From: Gemmatimonadota bacterium | GTDB lineage: Bacteria > Latescibacterota > UBA2968 > UBA8231 | NCBI GenBank assembly: GCA_002712305.1 | Contig: PATE01000048.1 | Location: 1-16,100, forward strand | DNA: 16,100 nt | Reading direction: 5' to 3' | Shown here: in pieces, positions 2,207 to 11,878 of the stretch | How the letters are laid out: each line of letters opens with the position of its first letter | Numbering within the stretch: position 1 is the first letter of the stretch | Position numbers and translations under genes: made by a program | Notes under the pieces: model-generated | What the model was told of the DNA's origin: nothing | Databases searched by the model: none | Seen by the model: only the letters and a program-made list of their open reading frames with translations

Positions 2207-4369
2207 GTGAGGATCGGTCTCCCAGACGATTTTCGAAACTATCTGTCCATGCGGGGGGCCTCAGTCACCCGCGAGGAGGAGGCGTCTCACCAGCCGCTGA
2301 CACCACGGGCTCTCGTGATCGGCGCCTTTCTGTCCTTCTTCCTCGGCGTCGGCGCCAACTACGCCGACATCGTGATCAAGGGCAGCTACATGACCCTCGA
2401 CTTCAGTACGCCGGGGGCCATTTTCGTTTTCCTCATCGTCGTGGGTTTTCTCAACTCTCTGTTCAAGTGGACGGGCCGCCATGTGCTGTTCAGTGGCGTC
2501 GTCACCCTGGCCCTCGCCTTCTGGTGGGCCTGGCATTTCTCACCCTACGACAAACTCTACGTCTACTCGCCCGGTGTGCTCTTTTCGGCCTTCATGGTGC
2601 TCGCCATGCTGGCCAATACCGTTCTTGCGGGCATGGGCCGCAATCTCGCTCTGAATCGGTCAGAGCTGATCGTCGTCTATATCATGCTCATCGTTGTGGC
2701 GTCGATCGCCACCATGGGTGTGTGTGAGACGATTCTACCGGCAATCACGGGGGTCTTCTACTACGCCTCGCCTGAGAACAAGTGGGCGGAAGTGCTGTTT
2801 CCCCATCTGCCGGATATGCTTCTGCTCAACGATGGCGAACAGAACCGAACCTTCTACGAGGGTTTCGGAACGACGGACTACGTCATTCCGTGGTCGATTT
2901 GGATCCGCCCCATGGCGATCTGGGGGATCTTCCTGTTGGCTCTCTACGTGGTGATGATCAGCATCTCCGTCATCCTGCGTCGTCAATGGATGGATCGTGA
3001 GCGCCTTTCCTATCCACTGGTTCAGGCTGCCCAGTCGATCATTCGCGGCGAAGACGAGAACACGGTCATCAATCCGTTCTTCAAGAGCCGGGCCATGTGG
3101 GCGGGGGCGTCGCTACCGATGCTCGTCGGTCTGTTTACGGGCCTCAACAAGTATCTGGGTGGTTGGCCGCTGATCCCGACGGCGTGGAGCTTTCCCATCG
3201 GGTTTGGTCAGTCGATCAACATGACCATCAGTTTCGCCGTGGTCGGATTCTCCTATCTCATCGGTCCCGACATCGCCATGGGGATCTGGGGCTTTGCGCT
3301 GCTGTCGAAGATTGAGAAGATGGTCTTCGTCGCCAACGGCGTGACGAAGCAGCAGGACGTCTGGGCTGTGACGGTGACCGAACTGCTCAATTATCAGGGC
3401 ATGGGGGCCCTGATCGTCTTTGTCGCCATCGGCCTGTGGGTGGGGCGTGAGCACCTCAAGCAGGTAGGTCTGCGCTTCCTGGGTCGTGATTCTGAACTGA
3501 GTGATGACAACGAAATCATGTCCTACAGGGCTGCCGTCACCGGAGCCCTCGTTGGGACGCTGGTGATGATCGGATGGTTCGTCGCCCTCGGAACACCGGT
3601 CTGGGCGGCGACGATCTTCATCTTCATACTGATGGTCATCTTCACAGGCCTTTCTCGCGTCGTCGCCGAATCGGGCATTGCGGCCATCATTACTCCGCTC
3701 AATGCTCCCGACTTCATGATCTACGGCATTGGCTCCAAGCTCCTCGGAGCCCAGGCCGTGACCAACTTCACCTTCGGCTACATCTACGCCGCAGACATTC
3801 GCGTTTTCCTCATGGGATTGGTTGCCAACGGTCTGAAGCTGATCGAGGGTATGAGCAGGCCTGATCGTCGAATCGTCTTTTGGTCGATTCTGGTCGCCAT
3901 TTTTCTCGGAGTCACGGGGTCCCTGTATACGGTGTTGGAATTGGGCTACAAGGAGGGTGGCATCAACTCGAATGCCTGGTTTTTCAACAGTATGCCCAAT
4001 ATCATCTACCGGACCGCCGTCAAAGGCATAGAAAACGAAGGGTTGTACTGGCCAGGCATGGGGGCGATGGGACTCGGCGGTGGGGCGATGCTCATGTTTA
4101 CCTGGCTTCGCCAACGATTCCTCTGGTGGCCCCTGCACCCGATCGGTTTTCCCATTATGTCCAGTTGGCTGGTGGACTGGATGTGGTTCAGCATCTTCTT
4201 CGCATGGCTGATCAAGATCATCGTCCTGAAATACGGAGGCGCCGAATTGTATGCGAAGAGCCGAAATTTCTTTCTCGGCATGATTGCGGGACGCATGTTT
4301 ATCAGTGGCGGTTGGCTCGTTGTCGACTATCTAACCGGTACGGTCAGTAATTCGATCTTCTGGATTTGA
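2207..4369 (+). CDS. DUF6785/DUF6784 family polytopic membrane protein (putative transporter)
   Basis: A 720-aa integral membrane protein with about 14 hydrophobic segments spread over residues 33-715. The pattern matches the DUF6785 family as I recall it: an N-terminal LTPRALVIGAFLSFFLG segment, an ELIVVYIMLIVV helix (153-164), then PENKWAEVLFPHLPDML (189-205), the loop RRQWMDRERLSYPLVQ (258-273), and a C-terminal DUF6784-like block with RQRFLWWPLHPIGFPI (635-650). The loop with LSYPLVQ resembles the LPFPT loop of OPT oligopeptide transporters, and SGIAAIITPLNAPDF resembles a re-entrant substrate region, so distant OPT kinship is plausible but unproven. The substrate is unknown. I chose the GTG at 2207 because GAGG (2196-2199) lies 7 nt upstream; the next Met (residue 15) would lose a charged N-terminus. 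It is the first gene of the trio, 66 bp before the next. Confidence 0.85.
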   Translation: MRIGLPDDFRNYLSMRGASVTREEEASHQPLTPRALVIGAFLSFFLGVGANYADIVIKGSYMTLDFSTPGAIFVFLIVVGFLNSLFKWTGRHVLFSGVVTLALAFWWAWHFSPYDKLYVYSPGVLFSAFMVLAMLANTVLAGMGRNLALNRSELIVVYIMLIVVASIATMGVCETILPAITGVFYYASPENKWAEVLFPHLPDMLLLNDGEQNRTFYEGFGTTDYVIPWSIWIRPMAIWGIFLLALYVVMISISVILRRQWMDRERLSYPLVQAAQSIIRGEDENTVINPFFKSRAMWAGASLPMLVGLFTGLNKYLGGWPLIPTAWSFPIGFGQSINMTISFAVVGFSYLIGPDIAMGIWGFALLSKIEKMVFVANGVTKQQDVWAVTVTELLNYQGMGALIVFVAIGLWVGREHLKQVGLRFLGRDSELSDDNEIMSYRAAVTGALVGTLVMIGWFVALGTPVWAATIFIFILMVIFTGLSRVVAESGIAAIITPLNAPDFMIYGIGSKLLGAQAVTNFTFGYIYAADIRVFLMGLVANGLKLIEGMSRPDRRIVFWSILVAIFLGVTGSLYTVLELGYKEGGINSNAWFFNSMPNIIYRTAVKGIENEGLYWPGMGAMGLGGGAMLMFTWLRQRFLWWPLHPIGFPIMSSWLVDWMWFSIFFAWLIKIIVLKYGGAELYAKSRNFFLGMIAGRMFISGGWLVVDYLTGTVSNSIFWI

Positions 4370-4435
4370 AGGTGATGGTGCGTTTCATTCCCCGAGGCTC
4401 GGCGTGACCCAAACTCTACAAGGAAGTCTGTTCAG

Positions 4436-7400
4436 GTGAGATTTCGTTTGCGACATGGCCTGTCGATTCTGGCATTGATGCTTGTGGGGGCTGCTCTTGT
4501 GCAGCCCGTGCGAGCGCAGCAGCCGGAGACGGTGCGCAGGATCTCGGCGACGGTTCGGGAGTTGTCGTCGCACGGCTCCCGGATGCCGGGATACCCGGGC
4601 GATCGACATGCCGCAGACTATGTCGAGGCTCAGTTGAAAGCTGCCGGCGTTCACGGCGTGACGCGCGAACCCTACGACGTCACCGTACCGATCGACAAGG
4701 GTGCGGGTCTCGAGTTGCTCGACGACGATGGCCATGTCGTCGACGAGATCGGTCTGCTCTCCCTCTGGCCGAACCTGGTGCGGACGAACACCCTGGGGCC
4801 GGAGGGGCTTTCCGGGCACCTGTTTTACGCCGGCAATGGGGAATACGAGGATTTCAATGGCTTCCACGTGGATGGCGCCATCGTCCTCATGGAGTTCAAT
4901 ACCTGGAAAAACTGGAAGAACGCCGCCGCTCTCGGTGCACGGGCCGTCATTTTCATCGAACCCGAGTCCAGCACGCTGTGGGAGTCCCGCTTCAAATGGA
5001 GCTGGGCACCCGTCCATATGCCTCGATTCTGGCTCTCTCGTCAGGCAGCCCTGGCGCTGAAAGAGCGACTGGACGGTGGCCAGCTCTCGGCGCGCCTCCA
5101 TGCGCAGATGGTCTTCGAAAGCCACACGACGTGGAATCTGTGGGGAACCGTCCCGGGTCAAGATCCGGAGTTGGCCGACGACATCATCGCCATCCAGGCC
5201 TACTACGATGGAATCTCGGTCGTCCCTGCCGACAACCCAGCCGCTGAGTCCACGGGCAGCATTGCAGCCCTGTTAGAGTTTGCCCGATATCTGAGGGAGC
5301 ATCCACCAGGGCGCACGGTCGTCCTGATCGCCTCAGGATCGAACTTCCAGGGGCAGCGGGGGCTGTTTGAGTGGTTCGACGTGCACGCCCGCTCTGTGGA
5401 CCCTTTCCGCGAGCGCATGCCAAAACGATTCGTCGCCGACTCATTGGATGTGGAACGACTGATCCGCGAATCGACCAGCAGGGGACTGTCGCTCGACTCA
5501 TTGGGAATCAAGCTGCGATCCGTCGCCGGGCGAACACCGGTCTTTGAATCGGTCGATCAGCCGAGGCTGGAGGCCCTGCTCAAGCTGCGCCGGATCAAGT
5601 CGGATTCGCTTGGTATTCGACTCGAACCGGACAGTCTCGATATCGACCTGTTCATCGCTCTGGAACTGTCTTCGAAGAGTGACCAGGTCGGGCTCGTGCA
5701 CAGTGCACGGTTGCCAGCTCATCGACGGTATTTCGTCCCCTTCGGTCGAAATTTCACCAGATATGCGCAGCACGCCGGCGAAAGGCTCGAGCGCGACCCA
5801 TCGTCGCTTGTCCAACTGATCAGTCCCGTGAAGGGACTCTCCGACGACAGTTACCTTGACGACGAGGTCTATCGCGAATCAGGTCGAGTCGCTCGCGACG
5901 TGGGGCTGATGGCCTTGAACCTGATCACGACCACCGACAAGCGGATGGTCCTCGATACACCATTGGATACGCCAGATCGCGTCAACGTGGGCAACCTGGC
6001 GCGGCAGTCGGAATTCATCAACGTGACCCTTGAGCAGGCGCTGGCTGACCCGGGCCTGTTTGGTGAAGATCCGGAGACCACGCGAAAGCTCCACGACAAG
6101 AACATCAAAGACATCTTCGTCGCCATTAACGGTCGATTGAGACTGTTGCCGCGGCGCAGCGCAGAACCGAAGGATCCCGTCGGCCATGGGATGGTCGTCA
6201 TCGTCAATGACTTCTACAAGTACATGTGGCGGCCGACGATCTATCTGACCGACAAGCGGGGCGAGTATAATGCCCGTGGTCTCGGCAAGTGGCGCACGCA
6301 GTTACGCGGCTTCAAGGTCGATCCCCTCACCGGCGACGTGACCTACGCCACCGACCATGGCGAACGAGCCCAGAAGATCGGTGCCTGGGAGCAGACGTTG
6401 TCCAAGGTCGAGACGGTGTGGACGACGATCATGTTTCCCGCCGAGAGTATCGAGTTCCACGACCGAGTCCATGCCCATTTCCACTTTACCATGGGCAATA
6501 GTCACAAGCGGATGAAGGTCCTCGACCGTCGCGGCGCGGAGCCCCGTCAGTATGGGTTTGTGATGGGGGATGTCGATGAACAGATGATGGTCCTATACGC
6601 AAGTGAAGATGATTCACTGCGTTTCGTCGATGAGTCCGTGCTTCTGCTCAACAACGTTGGCGCCACGGACGAGGTCAGTGGGCAGGGTGTTGGTTTCGAT
6701 TTCATACGCAATCGCACGATTCCACATGCCATGCTGCAGTCGACGAAGGATATGTGGCGTCTCGACGAAGCGCGGATCGAACGGATGCGCGAATTCGCGA
6801 TCGAGAATCCGCGCATTGACGCTCTCCATCAGCGTGCGGCTCGATCGCTGGAGCGGGCAGAAGCGGCGATGGAGCGGCTCGATTGGGGCGAATACATCAA
6901 ATACGCCCGTGAAGCGATCGGCCTGGAATACAACGCCTATCCGGATGTTCGTGGCACGCAGAATGACGTCATCAACGGACTCGTGTTCTTTGTGGCGCTG
7001 CTGATTCCCGCCGCGTTCTTCGCCGAGCGGCTGATCTTTGCCTCGACGGACATTCGTCGACAGTTGACGCTCTTCGCGGCGATCATGCTCGTGATCTGGG
7101 CGATCCTGTCACAGGTTCATCCCGCCTTCGAATTGGCCGACCCCATCATCATTCTGCTGGCCTTGATGGTCATGGTGATGGCCCTCTTCGTGATCGCTCT
7201 TGTCATGTCGCGCTTCAACGGCTTCATGACCGAACTGCGGCAGGCGCGATCGGGTACCGGAACGGGCGATATCAGCCGTTCCGGCACGGCCTACGTCGCC
7301 TTCATGCTGGGCATTTCCAATATGCGCAGGCGCGTTCTGCGTACCAGCTTGACCCTGGCGACGATCACACTGCTGACCTTCACGGTTCTCTCCTTTACCT

Positions 7401-9118
7401 CGTTCAAGCCGCAGATCCAATTTCTCGGCTTTTCGAAGGACTGGAAGCCCGCCTACCACGGCGTGCTGATGCATGACATTCACTGGTGGTCGTGGGAGTC
7501 AACCCACTTCGACTACCTGGACTCTCACTTCGGCTCACACGGGACCGTCGTGCAGCGTACGTGGGATGTGATGGGTTTCGAGGAAGAAGGCTTCATTCCG
7601 ATTCGCCGGAAGGGAAAGGAGGCAGATGCCCTGGGGGTTATGGGCTTCGAACCCGAAGAGAAGTACGTCACCGGCGTCGATCGGGCACTGATCGCCGGGT
7701 CATGGTTCGAGCGCAAGGATGAGGTCTCGGTGATCCTCTCCGATCAGATCGCCGAGAATCTTGGTGTCACGGCCGAACATGTATTGGCAGGCGAGACGGG
7801 GGACCAGGCGCGACCGCAAGTCTTTATCTACGGTCGATTCTGGGATGTGCGTGGCATCTACGATTCCGAGCTCTATGAGTCGATGCACGACCTCAATGAT
7901 GAGCCATTGACCCCTGCCAAGGAGCGCTTCGAGCAGTTCAACATGCCGGGCATGGACGTCATGTTCATGATGAACGAGATGATGTTCTTCGATTCCGATG
8001 TGGACATCGGGTTTGAGCATCAACCGGCGGAACGGCTCGTCATCGTTCCATACCAGCAATTGGAGAGTATGGGCGCTGATCTGATGTCGGTGGCCATTCA
8101 CTTTGATGAAGGGGCCAATGCCGAAGAACTGATCAAGAGTTATCTGTCACGGGCGAGTTTCCGTCTCTTTGTCGGTATGCCAGACGAAGATGGCGATCTC
8201 AAGACCTATGCCTACACCGCTTTTGGAGCCACCAGTATGGAGGGGATCGGCGCTCTTGTGATCCCCATGCTGATCGCAGCTCTCATCGTTCTGAATACAA
8301 TGATGGGCGCCGTGTATGAGCGATTCCGAGAGATTGGGGTCTACTCCTCCGTGGGACTGGCGCCCATTCACATCTCCTTCCTCTTTGTAGCTGAGGCTTG
8401 TGTTTACGGTGTGCTGGGTGTGGTGATCGGATACATCATCGGGCAAGTGGGCGGCAAGGTTCTGCTTCTACTCGATATGTTGTCGGGGATCTCCCTCAAC
8501 TACTCTTCGACCTCCGCCATCGCTGGGGCGACCCTTGTCATGCTCGTCGTCCTCGCTTCTTCGATCTATCCTGCACGAGTGGCGGCACAACTGGCCGTGC
8601 CGGATGTGGTTCGTCGCTGGCAGTTGCCCGATCCGAAGGACGACGTGTGGCAGTTTCCTTTTCCCTTCACGGTGAATGTGAATGCCGTGCAGAGTCTATG
8701 CGGGTATCTACACACACTGTTCACCTCCTACGGGCACGAATCGGTGGGCAAGATGTACACCGAGCGTACACGGGTTGTGAGGGAAGATCGGCCCGATGGT
8801 CCTCACTACGGGGTACAGCTGTTGCTGTGGCTTGCTCCCTTCGACATGGGGGTCAGTCAGTATCTTCAGTTCACCATGAGGCCGAGCGAGGAAAACCCTC
8901 GAATCTACGAGGTCGAGTTGTTTATTCAGCGGATCAGCGGACCCATCGCATTCTGGCAACGATTGAATCTTGGATTCATGCTCGACCTACGGAAACAGTT
9001 TCTCGTGTGGCAAACCCTGAAGAACGATCTGCAGGAAGAACACGCCGAGATGTGCCGCCAGGTCACCATCGATGCATCAGAAGTTGGGCTTCAGGAGCAG
9101 GAAGAGGCGGCCGGTTGA
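4436..9118 (+). CDS. Pseudo-M28 peptidase-like domain fused to an FtsX/MacB-type permease (1560 aa)
   Basis: Signal peptide at residues 1-28 (RFRLRH, hydrophobic core, cut near VRAQ). Residues 30-300 read as an M28 (Zn-aminopeptidase) fold with an inserted PA-like domain (about 100-230: GAIVLMEFN, ALGARAVIFIEPE). At the M28 metal sites the usual HxD is YYD (256-258), the A-D-D-N-A-S-G stretch is AAESTGS (269-275), and the catalytic Glu-Glu is Ser-Asn (302-303), so activity is doubtful. Residues 400-840 form a large periplasmic region with a helical end. Hydrophobic helices lie near 846-866, 875-895 and 901-925. The FtsX part follows: a helix at 966-988, a MacB-like periplasmic domain (990-1265), three helices (1268-1290, 1315-1342, 1360-1383) with REIGVYSSVGLAP, and a soluble tail (1400-1545). 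The GTG start has AGGAAG 9 nt upstream. No ABC ATPase gene is in the window. Confidence 0.87.
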   Translation: MRFRLRHGLSILALMLVGAALVQPVRAQQPETVRRISATVRELSSHGSRMPGYPGDRHAADYVEAQLKAAGVHGVTREPYDVTVPIDKGAGLELLDDDGHVVDEIGLLSLWPNLVRTNTLGPEGLSGHLFYAGNGEYEDFNGFHVDGAIVLMEFNTWKNWKNAAALGARAVIFIEPESSTLWESRFKWSWAPVHMPRFWLSRQAALALKERLDGGQLSARLHAQMVFESHTTWNLWGTVPGQDPELADDIIAIQAYYDGISVVPADNPAAESTGSIAALLEFARYLREHPPGRTVVLIASGSNFQGQRGLFEWFDVHARSVDPFRERMPKRFVADSLDVERLIRESTSRGLSLDSLGIKLRSVAGRTPVFESVDQPRLEALLKLRRIKSDSLGIRLEPDSLDIDLFIALELSSKSDQVGLVHSARLPAHRRYFVPFGRNFTRYAQHAGERLERDPSSLVQLISPVKGLSDDSYLDDEVYRESGRVARDVGLMALNLITTTDKRMVLDTPLDTPDRVNVGNLARQSEFINVTLEQALADPGLFGEDPETTRKLHDKNIKDIFVAINGRLRLLPRRSAEPKDPVGHGMVVIVNDFYKYMWRPTIYLTDKRGEYNARGLGKWRTQLRGFKVDPLTGDVTYATDHGERAQKIGAWEQTLSKVETVWTTIMFPAESIEFHDRVHAHFHFTMGNSHKRMKVLDRRGAEPRQYGFVMGDVDEQMMVLYASEDDSLRFVDESVLLLNNVGATDEVSGQGVGFDFIRNRTIPHAMLQSTKDMWRLDEARIERMREFAIENPRIDALHQRAARSLERAEAAMERLDWGEYIKYAREAIGLEYNAYPDVRGTQNDVINGLVFFVALLIPAAFFAERLIFASTDIRRQLTLFAAIMLVIWAILSQVHPAFELADPIIILLALMVMVMALFVIALVMSRFNGFMTELRQARSGTGTGDISRSGTAYVAFMLGISNMRRRVLRTSLTLATITLLTFTVLSFTSFKPQIQFLGFSKDWKPAYHGVLMHDIHWWSWESTHFDYLDSHFGSHGTVVQRTWDVMGFEEEGFIPIRRKGKEADALGVMGFEPEEKYVTGVDRALIAGSWFERKDEVSVILSDQIAENLGVTAEHVLAGETGDQARPQVFIYGRFWDVRGIYDSELYESMHDLNDEPLTPAKERFEQFNMPGMDVMFMMNEMMFFDSDVDIGFEHQPAERLVIVPYQQLESMGADLMSVAIHFDEGANAEELIKSYLSRASFRLFVGMPDEDGDLKTYAYTAFGATSMEGIGALVIPMLIAALIVLNTMMGAVYERFREIGVYSSVGLAPIHISFLFVAEACVYGVLGVVIGYIIGQVGGKVLLLLDMLSGISLNYSSTSAIAGATLVMLVVLASSIYPARVAAQLAVPDVVRRWQLPDPKDDVWQFPFPFTVNVNAVQSLCGYLHTLFTSYGHESVGKMYTERTRVVREDRPDGPHYGVQLLLWLAPFDMGVSQYLQFTMRPSEENPRIYEVELFIQRISGPIAFWQRLNLGFMLDLRKQFLVWQTLKNDLQEEHAEMCRQVTIDASEVGLQEQEEAAG

Positions 9119-9161
9119 GATCTCTCCGTCAAAACAGGTCAAGATTCGACGCAAGTCGGAT

Positions 9162-9182
9162 CGTGGGGATGACAGCCCCGCG
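9162..9182 (+). other. RNA hairpin between the second and third trio genes
   Basis: CGTGGGG (9162-9168) pairs with CCCCGCG (9176-9182) with one G-U pair and a 7-nt loop, 23 nt before the start at 9206. There is no U-tract, so it is unlikely to stop transcription. It could stabilise or mark a processing site in a polycistronic mRNA. The function is not demonstrated. Confidence 0.3.
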
Positions 9183-9205
9183 TTCTGACCAGCGATGGAG
9201 CAACC

Positions 9206-11878
9206 ATGGCTGACGAACGCAGCGAGAGAAAACGCAAGCGTCAGTACGAGGAGCTCAACGAGTACCGAGACCTTCTCGAAGCGCCGAACCAGTTCGAGGA
9301 AGGGTTCACGCGCAAGACGATCATCGGCGTCTTCTTCATCGCGTTCATCATGACGCCCGGACAGCTCTATCTGAGCCTGGTGACGGGACTGGGCATTGGG
9401 GATGCAGCTCAGTGGGTGACGGTCATCCTCTTCCTCGAAATCGCCAAACGCTCTTTCACGACGCTGAGACGGCAGGAGATCTTCCTGCTCACGTACGTGG
9501 CGTCGCAGCTCATCGTCCGGGCGCAGACCCAGACCTTCCAGGATCTGATTTTCCGGCAGTATTTCGTCGGCTCTCAAGAGGCGGCGCAGTTCGGTCTCAC
9601 GCAGAAACTGGTGAATCTGAAGTTCCTGGGCATGGGCTGGTATTCACCCCCGCCCGATTCCCCGGCGATCATCGCCCGCACCTTCTTCCACAGTGACTGG
9701 ACGCTGCCGATCGTGCTGCTCGTGATCGGAATCATCGTCTCAAAGGTGACCTGGTTTACTTCTGGGTATGTCCTGTTCAGACTGGTCTCTGACCGCGAAC
9801 AGTTGCCCTTTCCCACGGCACCACAAGCGGCGCTCGGTGCCATGGCGTTGGCAGAAGAGAGCGGCTCGGAGGAGCAGAGCTGGAAGTGGCCCTGCTTTAC
9901 CATCGGTGGGGCGATTGGGCTGGTCTTCGGACTGATCTATGTGGCAGTACCCGCCTTGACCGAGGCCTTTGCGGGCGTGAAGGTGGTGATCCTGCCGAAC
10001 CCCTTTGCCGATCTGACGCCCGTTCTTGGGCGTTTTCTCGGCGGCACCCCCATTGCGATTCCCTTTACGCTGTCACCGATCTTCATCGGACTGCTGGCGC
10101 CATTCTGGGGAATCATGGGTGCCTTCGCGGCGGTCGTGTCCTTTGTCGTGATCTCGCCCATGCTCCATCACTACGGCATGATGCCGCGATGGGTGCCGGG
10201 TATGGACGCGGTTCAGACGCAGATCACAGCAGGTGTGGATTTCTGGTCGCCCTTCGCCATGGGCGTCACTCTTGCCCTGGCCATCATCAGTTTTGTGCAG
10301 GTTTTCCGTACGGGGAAAGAACGATCCACCGATAAGGAGCACGCCAAAGAGCATGGCGAAGATCACTCCACGTGTCGCCACCCCGACTGTAAGAATCAAT
10401 CCCAGGTCCGTGGTTACTGTCTGAAGCATCTGAATCGCGGTGATTTCCCTCTGTGGATCTGCATCACCCTGTTTTTCGTCGCTGCCGCCTATCCGATCAT
10501 CCTTGCGAAGACGCTCTTCCCCGTGCTCATCACGACGGGCATGCTCATCCTCATCATGGTCATGGCTTTCGTCTATGCACCCATGATGTCCTTCGTGTCA
10601 GCCCGCCTCGACGGCCTTGTGGGACGAAACATCGTGATTCCTCATCTGCACGAGGCGACGGTCTTTCTCACCGGCTATCGTGGCGTGGAGATCTGGTTTG
10701 TCCCGCTTGCGGGGTCCGACTTCGGTGGCAACGCTGAGATCTTCCGTGTCATCGAACTGACGGGAATGAGATTCAGATCTCTGCTGAAGGCAGAGTTTCT
10801 CATGGTTCCCATCGTCCTGGGGGCAAGTCTGCTCTACTGGAGTTTCCTGTGGCGCTTGGCGCCGATTCCCTCCGATGCCTACCCGTATGTCCAGACCTTC
10901 TGGCCCGCCCAGGCCTTCGCCTCTGCCGTGAGGTATTCGGCGACGCAGTACAGTCTGACGTATCGGACAGGGGAAGAGGTGGAGGGACAGATCGTGCAGG
11001 ACGGCGAGTTTGTCTGGAATCCAGCGAATCTGCAGGACAAGAGCATCTATTACTGGCGTATGCGAGTGACGGACGAGCTTGCTGTCCGCAACCCCCAACT
11101 GCGCAAATACGGCGAGTGGACCCAGAGTGGTTACTTCTATACCGACTTCACCGGTAGCGGAGGTACCCGGGCACCGCCGGAAATCGTGGCCAATCGGTCA
11201 GATCTGGACGTCCTGCAGGTCGGACTGCCGGAGCCGGAGATGGTTTGGCCAATGGACGGCGACGTCGTCTCCGATCCCGACCCGCACATGCGTGCCGCCG
11301 TGCCGCCTGAGTGGGAGGGTCGACTCGAGATCGTCTTCCAGCTCGACACAGACCCGGAGTATCTCGGCGACTTCTATCAGGGGTCGGCGGATACGCCGAT
11401 GTTCTTCAAGATCTACTGGGAGGATCTCGACTACACTGGCGACGGTCGCGATGACGACCTGGATGGCCTGATTGATGAAGAGTATCTGAATCAGAAGGAC
11501 GACGATGGCGACGGCGAGATCGATGAAGACGTCCACCATCCCTTGCGAGGGCGCAAGTGGCCGATCATGGCTCTGGGACTGGGATTTGCGATCGTCCTCT
11601 ACACCGTTCTGAGCTTCTTTGGCATGCCCATGTTCTTTGTCTGGGGATACATCGGCGGTGTCGCGCAGGTCGGGGTGGCGACCTTCTTCAATCTCTTTAC
11701 CGAGTTTATCGGTGCACTGATCGCGCGACGGTACTTCTGGAAGAAGTATGGCAAGCAGGAATGGAGGCGTTATGCCATGGTCCTGGCCGTCGGCTACGGC
11801 GTGGGTCTCGCCCTGGTCGGCATGTTCTGTGCGGCGATCCTGATGATCCGAAAGGCCGTTTCCGCAACAGTGTTCTAA
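9206..11878 (+). CDS. OPT-family-like transporter with zinc-finger-like loop, Fn3-like insert and acidic Ca-binding-like repeats (890 aa)
   Basis: The N-terminus is charged and cytoplasmic. Residues 38-85 resemble the OPT oligopeptide-transporter start (GQLYLSLVTGLGIGDAAQWV), and REQLPFPTAPQAALGAMALA (197-216) matches the OPT LPFPT loop. Many hydrophobic helices fill 38-550. A hydrophilic loop (370-411) holds C390-x4-C395-x9-C405-x2-H408, a compact zinc-finger-like pattern. Residues 570-780 are an extracytoplasmic insert: an Fn3-like part (SIYYWRMRV, YFYTDFTG), a second beta-rich part, then two Asp-rich segments (DGRDDDLDGLIDEE 746-759; DDDGDGEIDED 765-775) of the thrombospondin-3/EF-loop type. 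Helices at 787-885 close the protein. The likely role is peptide or metal-chelate transport; the substrate is unknown. The ATG follows TGGAG (9196-9200). It is the last gene of the trio, 87 bp after the second, with only 3 bp to the convergent MFS gene. Confidence 0.8.
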   Translation: MADERSERKRKRQYEELNEYRDLLEAPNQFEEGFTRKTIIGVFFIAFIMTPGQLYLSLVTGLGIGDAAQWVTVILFLEIAKRSFTTLRRQEIFLLTYVASQLIVRAQTQTFQDLIFRQYFVGSQEAAQFGLTQKLVNLKFLGMGWYSPPPDSPAIIARTFFHSDWTLPIVLLVIGIIVSKVTWFTSGYVLFRLVSDREQLPFPTAPQAALGAMALAEESGSEEQSWKWPCFTIGGAIGLVFGLIYVAVPALTEAFAGVKVVILPNPFADLTPVLGRFLGGTPIAIPFTLSPIFIGLLAPFWGIMGAFAAVVSFVVISPMLHHYGMMPRWVPGMDAVQTQITAGVDFWSPFAMGVTLALAIISFVQVFRTGKERSTDKEHAKEHGEDHSTCRHPDCKNQSQVRGYCLKHLNRGDFPLWICITLFFVAAAYPIILAKTLFPVLITTGMLILIMVMAFVYAPMMSFVSARLDGLVGRNIVIPHLHEATVFLTGYRGVEIWFVPLAGSDFGGNAEIFRVIELTGMRFRSLLKAEFLMVPIVLGASLLYWSFLWRLAPIPSDAYPYVQTFWPAQAFASAVRYSATQYSLTYRTGEEVEGQIVQDGEFVWNPANLQDKSIYYWRMRVTDELAVRNPQLRKYGEWTQSGYFYTDFTGSGGTRAPPEIVANRSDLDVLQVGLPEPEMVWPMDGDVVSDPDPHMRAAVPPEWEGRLEIVFQLDTDPEYLGDFYQGSADTPMFFKIYWEDLDYTGDGRDDDLDGLIDEEYLNQKDDDGDGEIDEDVHHPLRGRKWPIMALGLGFAIVLYTVLSFFGMPMFFVWGYIGGVAQVGVATFFNLFTEFIGALIARRYFWKKYGKQEWRRYAMVLAVGYGVGLALVGMFCAAILMIRKAVSATVF

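Follow-up and report, generated by a model that had tools for sequence, protein, structure and literature searches.

The locus studied here raises the question of how three adjacent genes for large membrane proteins, the middle one encoding an FtsX/MacB-like permease, can form a working system when their contig carries no gene for an ABC ATPase. The genes lie in the window, i.e. the whole analysed stretch of 16,100 nucleotides, which is part of a 43-kb contig (C69) in a genome of 146 contigs (G000). The contig most closely related to the window is 87% identical and belongs to SI074_bin69, deposited as Gemmatimonadetes; the other relatives are for the most part deposited as Latescibacterota, the phylum to which we assign the window's genome. 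All three genes, P1 (2207-4369, 720 aa), P2 (4436-9118, 1560 aa) and P3 (9206-11878, 890 aa), are on the forward strand, and their coordinates, with gaps of 66 bp (P1-P2) and 87 bp (P2-P3), agree with those given in an earlier sequence-only reading of this DNA. That reading took the products for one envelope complex, in which a permease without an ATPase would hold two secondary transporters together or present substrate to them. A promoter scan of the window returned 3 sites where 3.4 were expected, i.e. not above chance, and 12 terminator-like sites were found against 7.1 ± 3.5. Upstream of the cassette (816-1922) lies a gene for a Gfo/Idh/MocA oxidoreductase, relatives of which also occur beside P2 in five other loci (L028, L030, L091, L102, L105).

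The three proteins of the cassette

P1 (2207-4369, forward) is a polytopic membrane protein in which Pfam recognises DUF6785 (PF20581; E 5e-111, 372 bits against a curated cut-off of 25) and DUF6784 (PF20580; 5e-27). Its profile found no relative among PDB sequences, and none of 34 DUF6785 members matched the OPT family of Pfam. P3 (9206-11878, forward) itself has no Pfam match; 7 of its 45 relatives match OPT (PF03169, best 1e-10), and its structure model aligns with the OPT transporter YS1 (7wst) over 536 residues (Z 17.1, rmsd 4.5, 11% identity), the first non-OPT row in the same comparison scoring Z 5.1. The P3 profile found no relative among PDB sequences either, and the OPT assignment therefore rests on the fold comparison. 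P1 and P3 gave only a short, non-significant match in a direct BLAST, so that a profile comparison was needed to relate them; profile against profile they align over 434 columns (probability 92, E 6e-7), by which two of the three cassette proteins look like members of the OPT superfamily, P1 being a distant one. P3 thus resembles the OPT/YSL transporters of oligopeptides and metal chelates, such as barley YS1, in its fold and in the Pfam matches of its relatives, and DUF6785 is remotely similar to them. It differs from them in its very low identity (11%), in its Ig-like and zinc-finger-like inserts and in that its gene is almost always accompanied by one for a type VII permease.

The inserts of P3 are variable. 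A zinc-finger-like Cys/His cluster, CRHPDCKNQSQVRGYCLKH (10370-10432, forward), varies among the relatives, of which 5 out of 45 match Zf_WRKY19. An Ig-like beta domain (aa 580-729; 10943-11392, forward), for which the fold search returned generic Ig rows only (Z ~5), is followed by an acidic, D-rich segment of the DxDxDG type, both lying within 10943-11540 (aa 580-778); the Ig-like domain is missing from the P3 paralogue on contig C36. PDZ or zinc-finger-like inserts were seen in other P3 relatives.

P2 (4436-9118, forward) is a fusion of an M28-like domain and a type VII (FtsX-MacB-like) permease. PF04389 (M28) is matched by 43 of the 51 members of the P2 family (best 1e-16), and P2 also has a weak match to the PA domain. 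The model of the N-terminus (4520-6115, forward, limits approximate; pLDDT 91.5) aligns with BSAP/YwaD over 385 residues (Z 26.9, rmsd 5.6), which shows that the M28 fold is present. In the metal site (substituted ligands H256->Y, E271, N/H303) 63 of 67 homologues have Tyr for the first His, and Glu-Glu has given way to His-[Phe/His], with His at the first of these positions in 65 of 67; the co-catalytic metal ligands and the general base of M28 are not kept. Because the metal-site residues are replaced, the N-terminus is very likely not a peptidase. P2 thus shares its N-terminal fold, with the PA-domain insertion, with the M28 aminopeptidases and the pseudo-M28 receptors (YwaD/BSAP, TfR1, nicalin), and differs from them in its substituted catalytic and metal residues and in being fused to an ABC permease. 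Both the 'pseudo'-M28 label and the OPT-like nature that the sequence-only reading had given to the second and third gene were borne out by these comparisons.

The type VII transmembrane module of P2 (7313-8620, forward, limits read from the sequence) consists of TM1, an external domain of ~260 aa and TM2-TM4. It matches FtsX of Pfam (PF02687; aa 1273-1384, 7e-13, 49 bits, cut-off 25.5) and the sequences of MacB (E 5e-14 among PDB sequences), LolC and YtrF. In permeases of the MacB/LolCDE type, the helix that follows TM2 is the one that couples to the ATPase. In P2 the most conserved 25-residue stretch (mean column conservation 0.91 in 67 sequences) falls within aa 1280-1311 (8273-8368, forward), which hold TM2 and the motif VYERFREIG, the predicted coupling helix. 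After TM4 follows a C-terminal domain (8621-9115, forward) with the conserved motif WLAPFD[LM]GVSQ.

Conservation of the cassette and the whereabouts of an ATPase

More than 400 relatives were found in 84,980 species genomes, and the best 80 loci were examined; the locus counts use the original P2 profile, the profiles rebuilt with fused proteins being distorted. P3 lies immediately 3' of P2 in 49 of 69 testable loci and P1 immediately 5' of it in 36 of 60, and among the 59 loci that could be tested on both sides, P1 or P3 adjoins or is fused to P2 in 52 and neither does so in 7. Recurrence of the same genes together in dozens of genomes is more than chance. In five loci (L067, L068, L072, L073, L103) P2 and DUF6785 form a single protein of ~2,130 aa, and such a fusion is strong evidence of a joint function of P1 and P2. 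The genome of the window contains four intact P2 cassettes, on C69, C85, C66 and C36, in three arrangements (P1-P2-P3 on C85, P2-P3-geneA-geneB on C66, P2-P1-P3 on C36); C43 has a P3 on its own. That content is kept while gene order varies suggests that the genes are linked by function and not just inherited passively. Conserved adjacency and natural P2-DUF6785 fusion support well the idea of the sequence-only reading that P1, P2 and P3 would form one envelope complex.

Several further genes were observed around the cassettes. A small TPR protein, possibly a further cassette component, is encoded directly 5' of P2 in L065, L070, L098, L104 and L050, and 5' of P1 in L088, L092 and L095. PspA-like, DUF350-like and spermidine-synthase-like genes, named by reading their sequences, follow P3 in cassettes of the C85 type (L037, L039, L056, L057, L060, L062, L101), and spermidine-synthase relatives also occur 3' of P1-P2 in L088, L092 and L095. 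A link to polyamines, considered from the spermidine-synthase-like neighbours in 10 loci, was not adopted, none having been seen around the window's own cassettes. On contig C60 of the window's genome (L139:7714-9013), a broken C-terminal remnant of a P2 permease adjoins a C-terminal fragment of DUF6785, apparently a decayed P2-DUF6785 cassette.

No ATPase of family PF00005 is encoded on the window's 43-kb contig, and 58 matches are present elsewhere in the genome. The relatives point to one of them. In six loci from Armatimonadota and other relatives (L050, L077, L087, L090, L097, L100) the operon reads P2-P3-geneA-geneB-sF-AB and in a seventh (L099) P2-P3-sF-AB, so that 7 of the 80 loci examined have sF and AB within the P2 operon; moreover, a deep relative within the window's phylum (L150:238-13348, on contig C119 of G006) carries the full series P1-P2-P3-geneA-geneB-sF-AB on one contig. 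AB is a LolD/MacB-like ABC ATPase and sF a small FtsX-type permease of ~220 aa that almost lacks the external domain (MacB match 1e-23). The two adjoin each other in 20 of 20 further genomes and, as a single pair, on contig C41 of the window's genome, where they stand out among the FtsX and ABC proteins read there (sF 261 bits against 76 for the next best; AB 433 against 330). GeneB belongs to the PqqD family (PF05402) and geneA has no match in Pfam, NCBIfam or PDB; both occur in some cassettes only, geneB being missing from many. After P2-P3 on C66 (L009:3309-4719) geneA, a conserved unnamed family of at least two phyla, was seen together with geneB.

Absence of an ABC ATPase, as read from the sequence, accordingly holds for the window's contig and fails for the genome, in which the sF-AB pair is encoded once, on C41. 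The operons that include sF and AB, and the unlinked pair of the window's genome, do not support the premise of a permease that acts without an ATPase. In part of the family an ATPase gene does stand beside the fusion, and a consistent neighbour of this kind was what the sequence-only reading had named as speaking against it.

Co-occurrence and copy numbers

Among 50 genomes of the window's phylum, P2 is present in 47, in 1-9 copies, and P3 in the same 47. A strong sF (at least 257 bits, everything else scoring below 88) is found in these same 47 of 50, always as one copy, and the three negative genomes, all of one family, are without P2, P3 and sF. Four genomes that consist of a single contig have 3, 3, 7 and 8 P2 genes versus one strong sF each, so that the single sF is not an effect of assembly. 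In 121 Armatimonadota, P2 was found in 100 genomes, one of them (G128) by a weak call, and sF in 98 of those and nowhere alone (Fisher 1.5e-21), at no more than 16 kb from P2 in 65 of the 98; the absence of sF from the two others (G151, G161) may reflect missing assembly. DUF6785 occurs, among the Armatimonadota genomes listed, in exactly the 100 that are positive for P2 and in none of the 21 others, and it was likewise found in 16 of 16 P2-positive and 0 of 9 P2-negative genomes in a set of 25 chosen ones and in 0 of 14 control genomes. These figures count genomes rather than independent gains and losses. We place high confidence in the association of the P1-P2-P3 module, sF-AB and DUF6785.

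DUF6785 is at the same time strongly amplified, with 17 matches in the window's genome and a maximum of at least 39 copies in a single genome among the 25 chosen. In the window's genome the unlinked copies lie near genes for sulfatases, a GH32 glycosidase, an enolase-superfamily enzyme, an amidohydrolase, a creatininase and similar catabolic proteins, a neighbourhood from one genome that weakly suggests substrate-specific uptake. One of the 17 matches there (C92:20824-21414, L175) contains an in-frame TAG stop and is likely a pseudogene.

How the system may work

In our reading, P1, P2 and P3 probably belong, as membrane subunits, to an envelope system that is powered by an ABC ATPase and not described before, and in which sF-AB is shared in trans by several P2-P3 modules. 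P2 would be the large type VII permease, with a periplasmic, receptor-like pseudo-M28 domain, and would form with sF a permease pair on a dimer of AB; AB from C41 would serve several P2-P3 modules in trans. The movement of P2/sF that ATP hydrolysis by AB would bring about would be passed on to P3 and to DUF6785 proteins, P1 among them, and would drive substrate through these or else assemble or gate them. Our confidence in this mechanism is moderate: we infer from gene content and conservation the pairing of sF-AB with P2, its use by unlinked P2s, the direction of transport and the substrate. With a single sF per genome, it could also be that the majority of the P2 paralogues depend on a different one of the many ABC ATPases, or on none. 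MacB-like ABC systems, moreover, usually act in the periplasm, and we know of none that drives separate carriers; both points count against the reading.

Compared with the type VII ABC systems (MacB, LolCDE, FtsEX, YbbAP-TesA), the proposed system has the FtsX/MacB-type permease fold in both P2 and sF, a LolD/MacB-like ATPase adjoining sF and a conserved coupling helix in P2, and differs by the pseudo-M28 domain, the extra TM segments, the OPT-fold partners and an ATPase that is often encoded elsewhere, as a single copy. Its economy resembles that of the group II ECF transporters, in which one module is common to many S components (PMC3246461): one ATPase-permease module would serve many carrier-like membrane proteins per genome. 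The copy numbers per genome (one sF, 1-9 P2, up to at least 39 DUF6785) fit such a plan of one module and many carriers. The parts are not homologous, with FtsX-type permeases in place of EcfT and OPT-like carriers in place of S components, and no EcfT or S-component family was found among them by Pfam or fold, so that the likeness is an analogy at most. By this analogy we favour the view that the system energises many DUF6785 carriers, each specific for a substrate, over gating or assembly: the putative carriers are more numerous than the hubs, and these more numerous than the engines, as is the case in group II ECF.

Three other readings have to be weighed against this one. Under the sequence-only reading, P2 would need no ATPase and would serve two secondary transporters as a scaffold or by presenting substrate, and sF-AB would be a separate system that is co-inherited by coincidence. 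OPT transporters in other organisms are indeed ion-coupled, the window's contig lacks an ATPase and sF-AB is not near most Latescibacterota cassettes; against this stand the presence of sF-AB in the P2 operon in several phyla, the small FtsX that tracks P2 in 47 of 47 and 98 of 100 genomes, and the coupling helix, whose position as the best conserved part of P2 would be expected if P2 still works with an ATPase, but not if it were a scaffold and nothing more. We regard this reading as unlikely; of the original interpretation the three-protein complex is well supported and the ATPase-free premise needs correcting, the ATPase being probably encoded elsewhere and apparently shared.

Somewhat less improbable, while still doubtful, is that P2-P3-sF-AB serves the biogenesis or quality control of OPT/DUF6785 proteins with their many membrane spans, in a way that loosely recalls the multipass translocon of eukaryotes: the pseudo-M28 domain would bind folding clients and ATP-driven movement would aid their insertion or assembly. 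Nicalin, a subunit of that translocon, has an M28-type domain (PMC9630114) and is among the PDB sequence matches of the P2 N-terminus (E 9e-10), the best of which, however, are bacterial aminopeptidases. The all-or-none occurrence with an amplified polytopic family, the copy numbers, which one machine with many clients would explain, and the fusion or adjacency of P2 to its would-be clients all suit this idea; yet P3, and sometimes P1, is encoded in the operon itself, as a partner and not just a client, and no ribosome- or Sec-linked gene was noticed near the cassettes. The least probable alternative is an export or extraction machine in the style of MacB, LolCDE and YbbAP-TesA, which would clear the inner membrane of peptides, lipids or a modified peptide, with P3/P1 as the membrane path and geneB recognising a peptide substrate. 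It draws on PqqD proteins, which bind peptides in RiPP pathways and to whose family geneB belongs, on the closeness of the P2 permease and AB to MacB/LolD, and on YbbAP-TesA as a type VII ABC system with a hydrolase partner (PMC12646458). It leaves the amplification of DUF6785 in catabolic settings unexplained, geneB is missing from many cassettes, and RiPP enzymes, a precursor, a MacA-like adaptor or TolC were not recognised in the loci read.

Returning to the shared, ABC-powered system, its boldest form is that one type VII engine (sF with its ATPase) is common to several pseudo-M28/FtsX-OPT hubs and, through them, to DUF6785 carriers that are specific for their substrates and number tens per genome. 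Such an ECF-like economy, evolved independently from MacB- and OPT-type parts, would be a new modular class of primary transport; this we put forward tentatively, as a possibility short of an even chance. In a literature search outside which most subscription papers lay, no description of the P1-P2-P3/sF-AB combination was found, DUF6785 was named in no paper found and combined searches gave nothing relevant. The large family DUF6785 is present in tens of copies in Latescibacterota and Armatimonadota that are uncultured. Its all-or-none occurrence with one machinery offers a function that can be tested, and would account for the ability of these bacteria to run carriers in such numbers. Should the engine be shared, type VII ABC motors would act on separate membrane carriers, and a second, independently evolved form of modular energy coupling would stand beside the ECF transporters.
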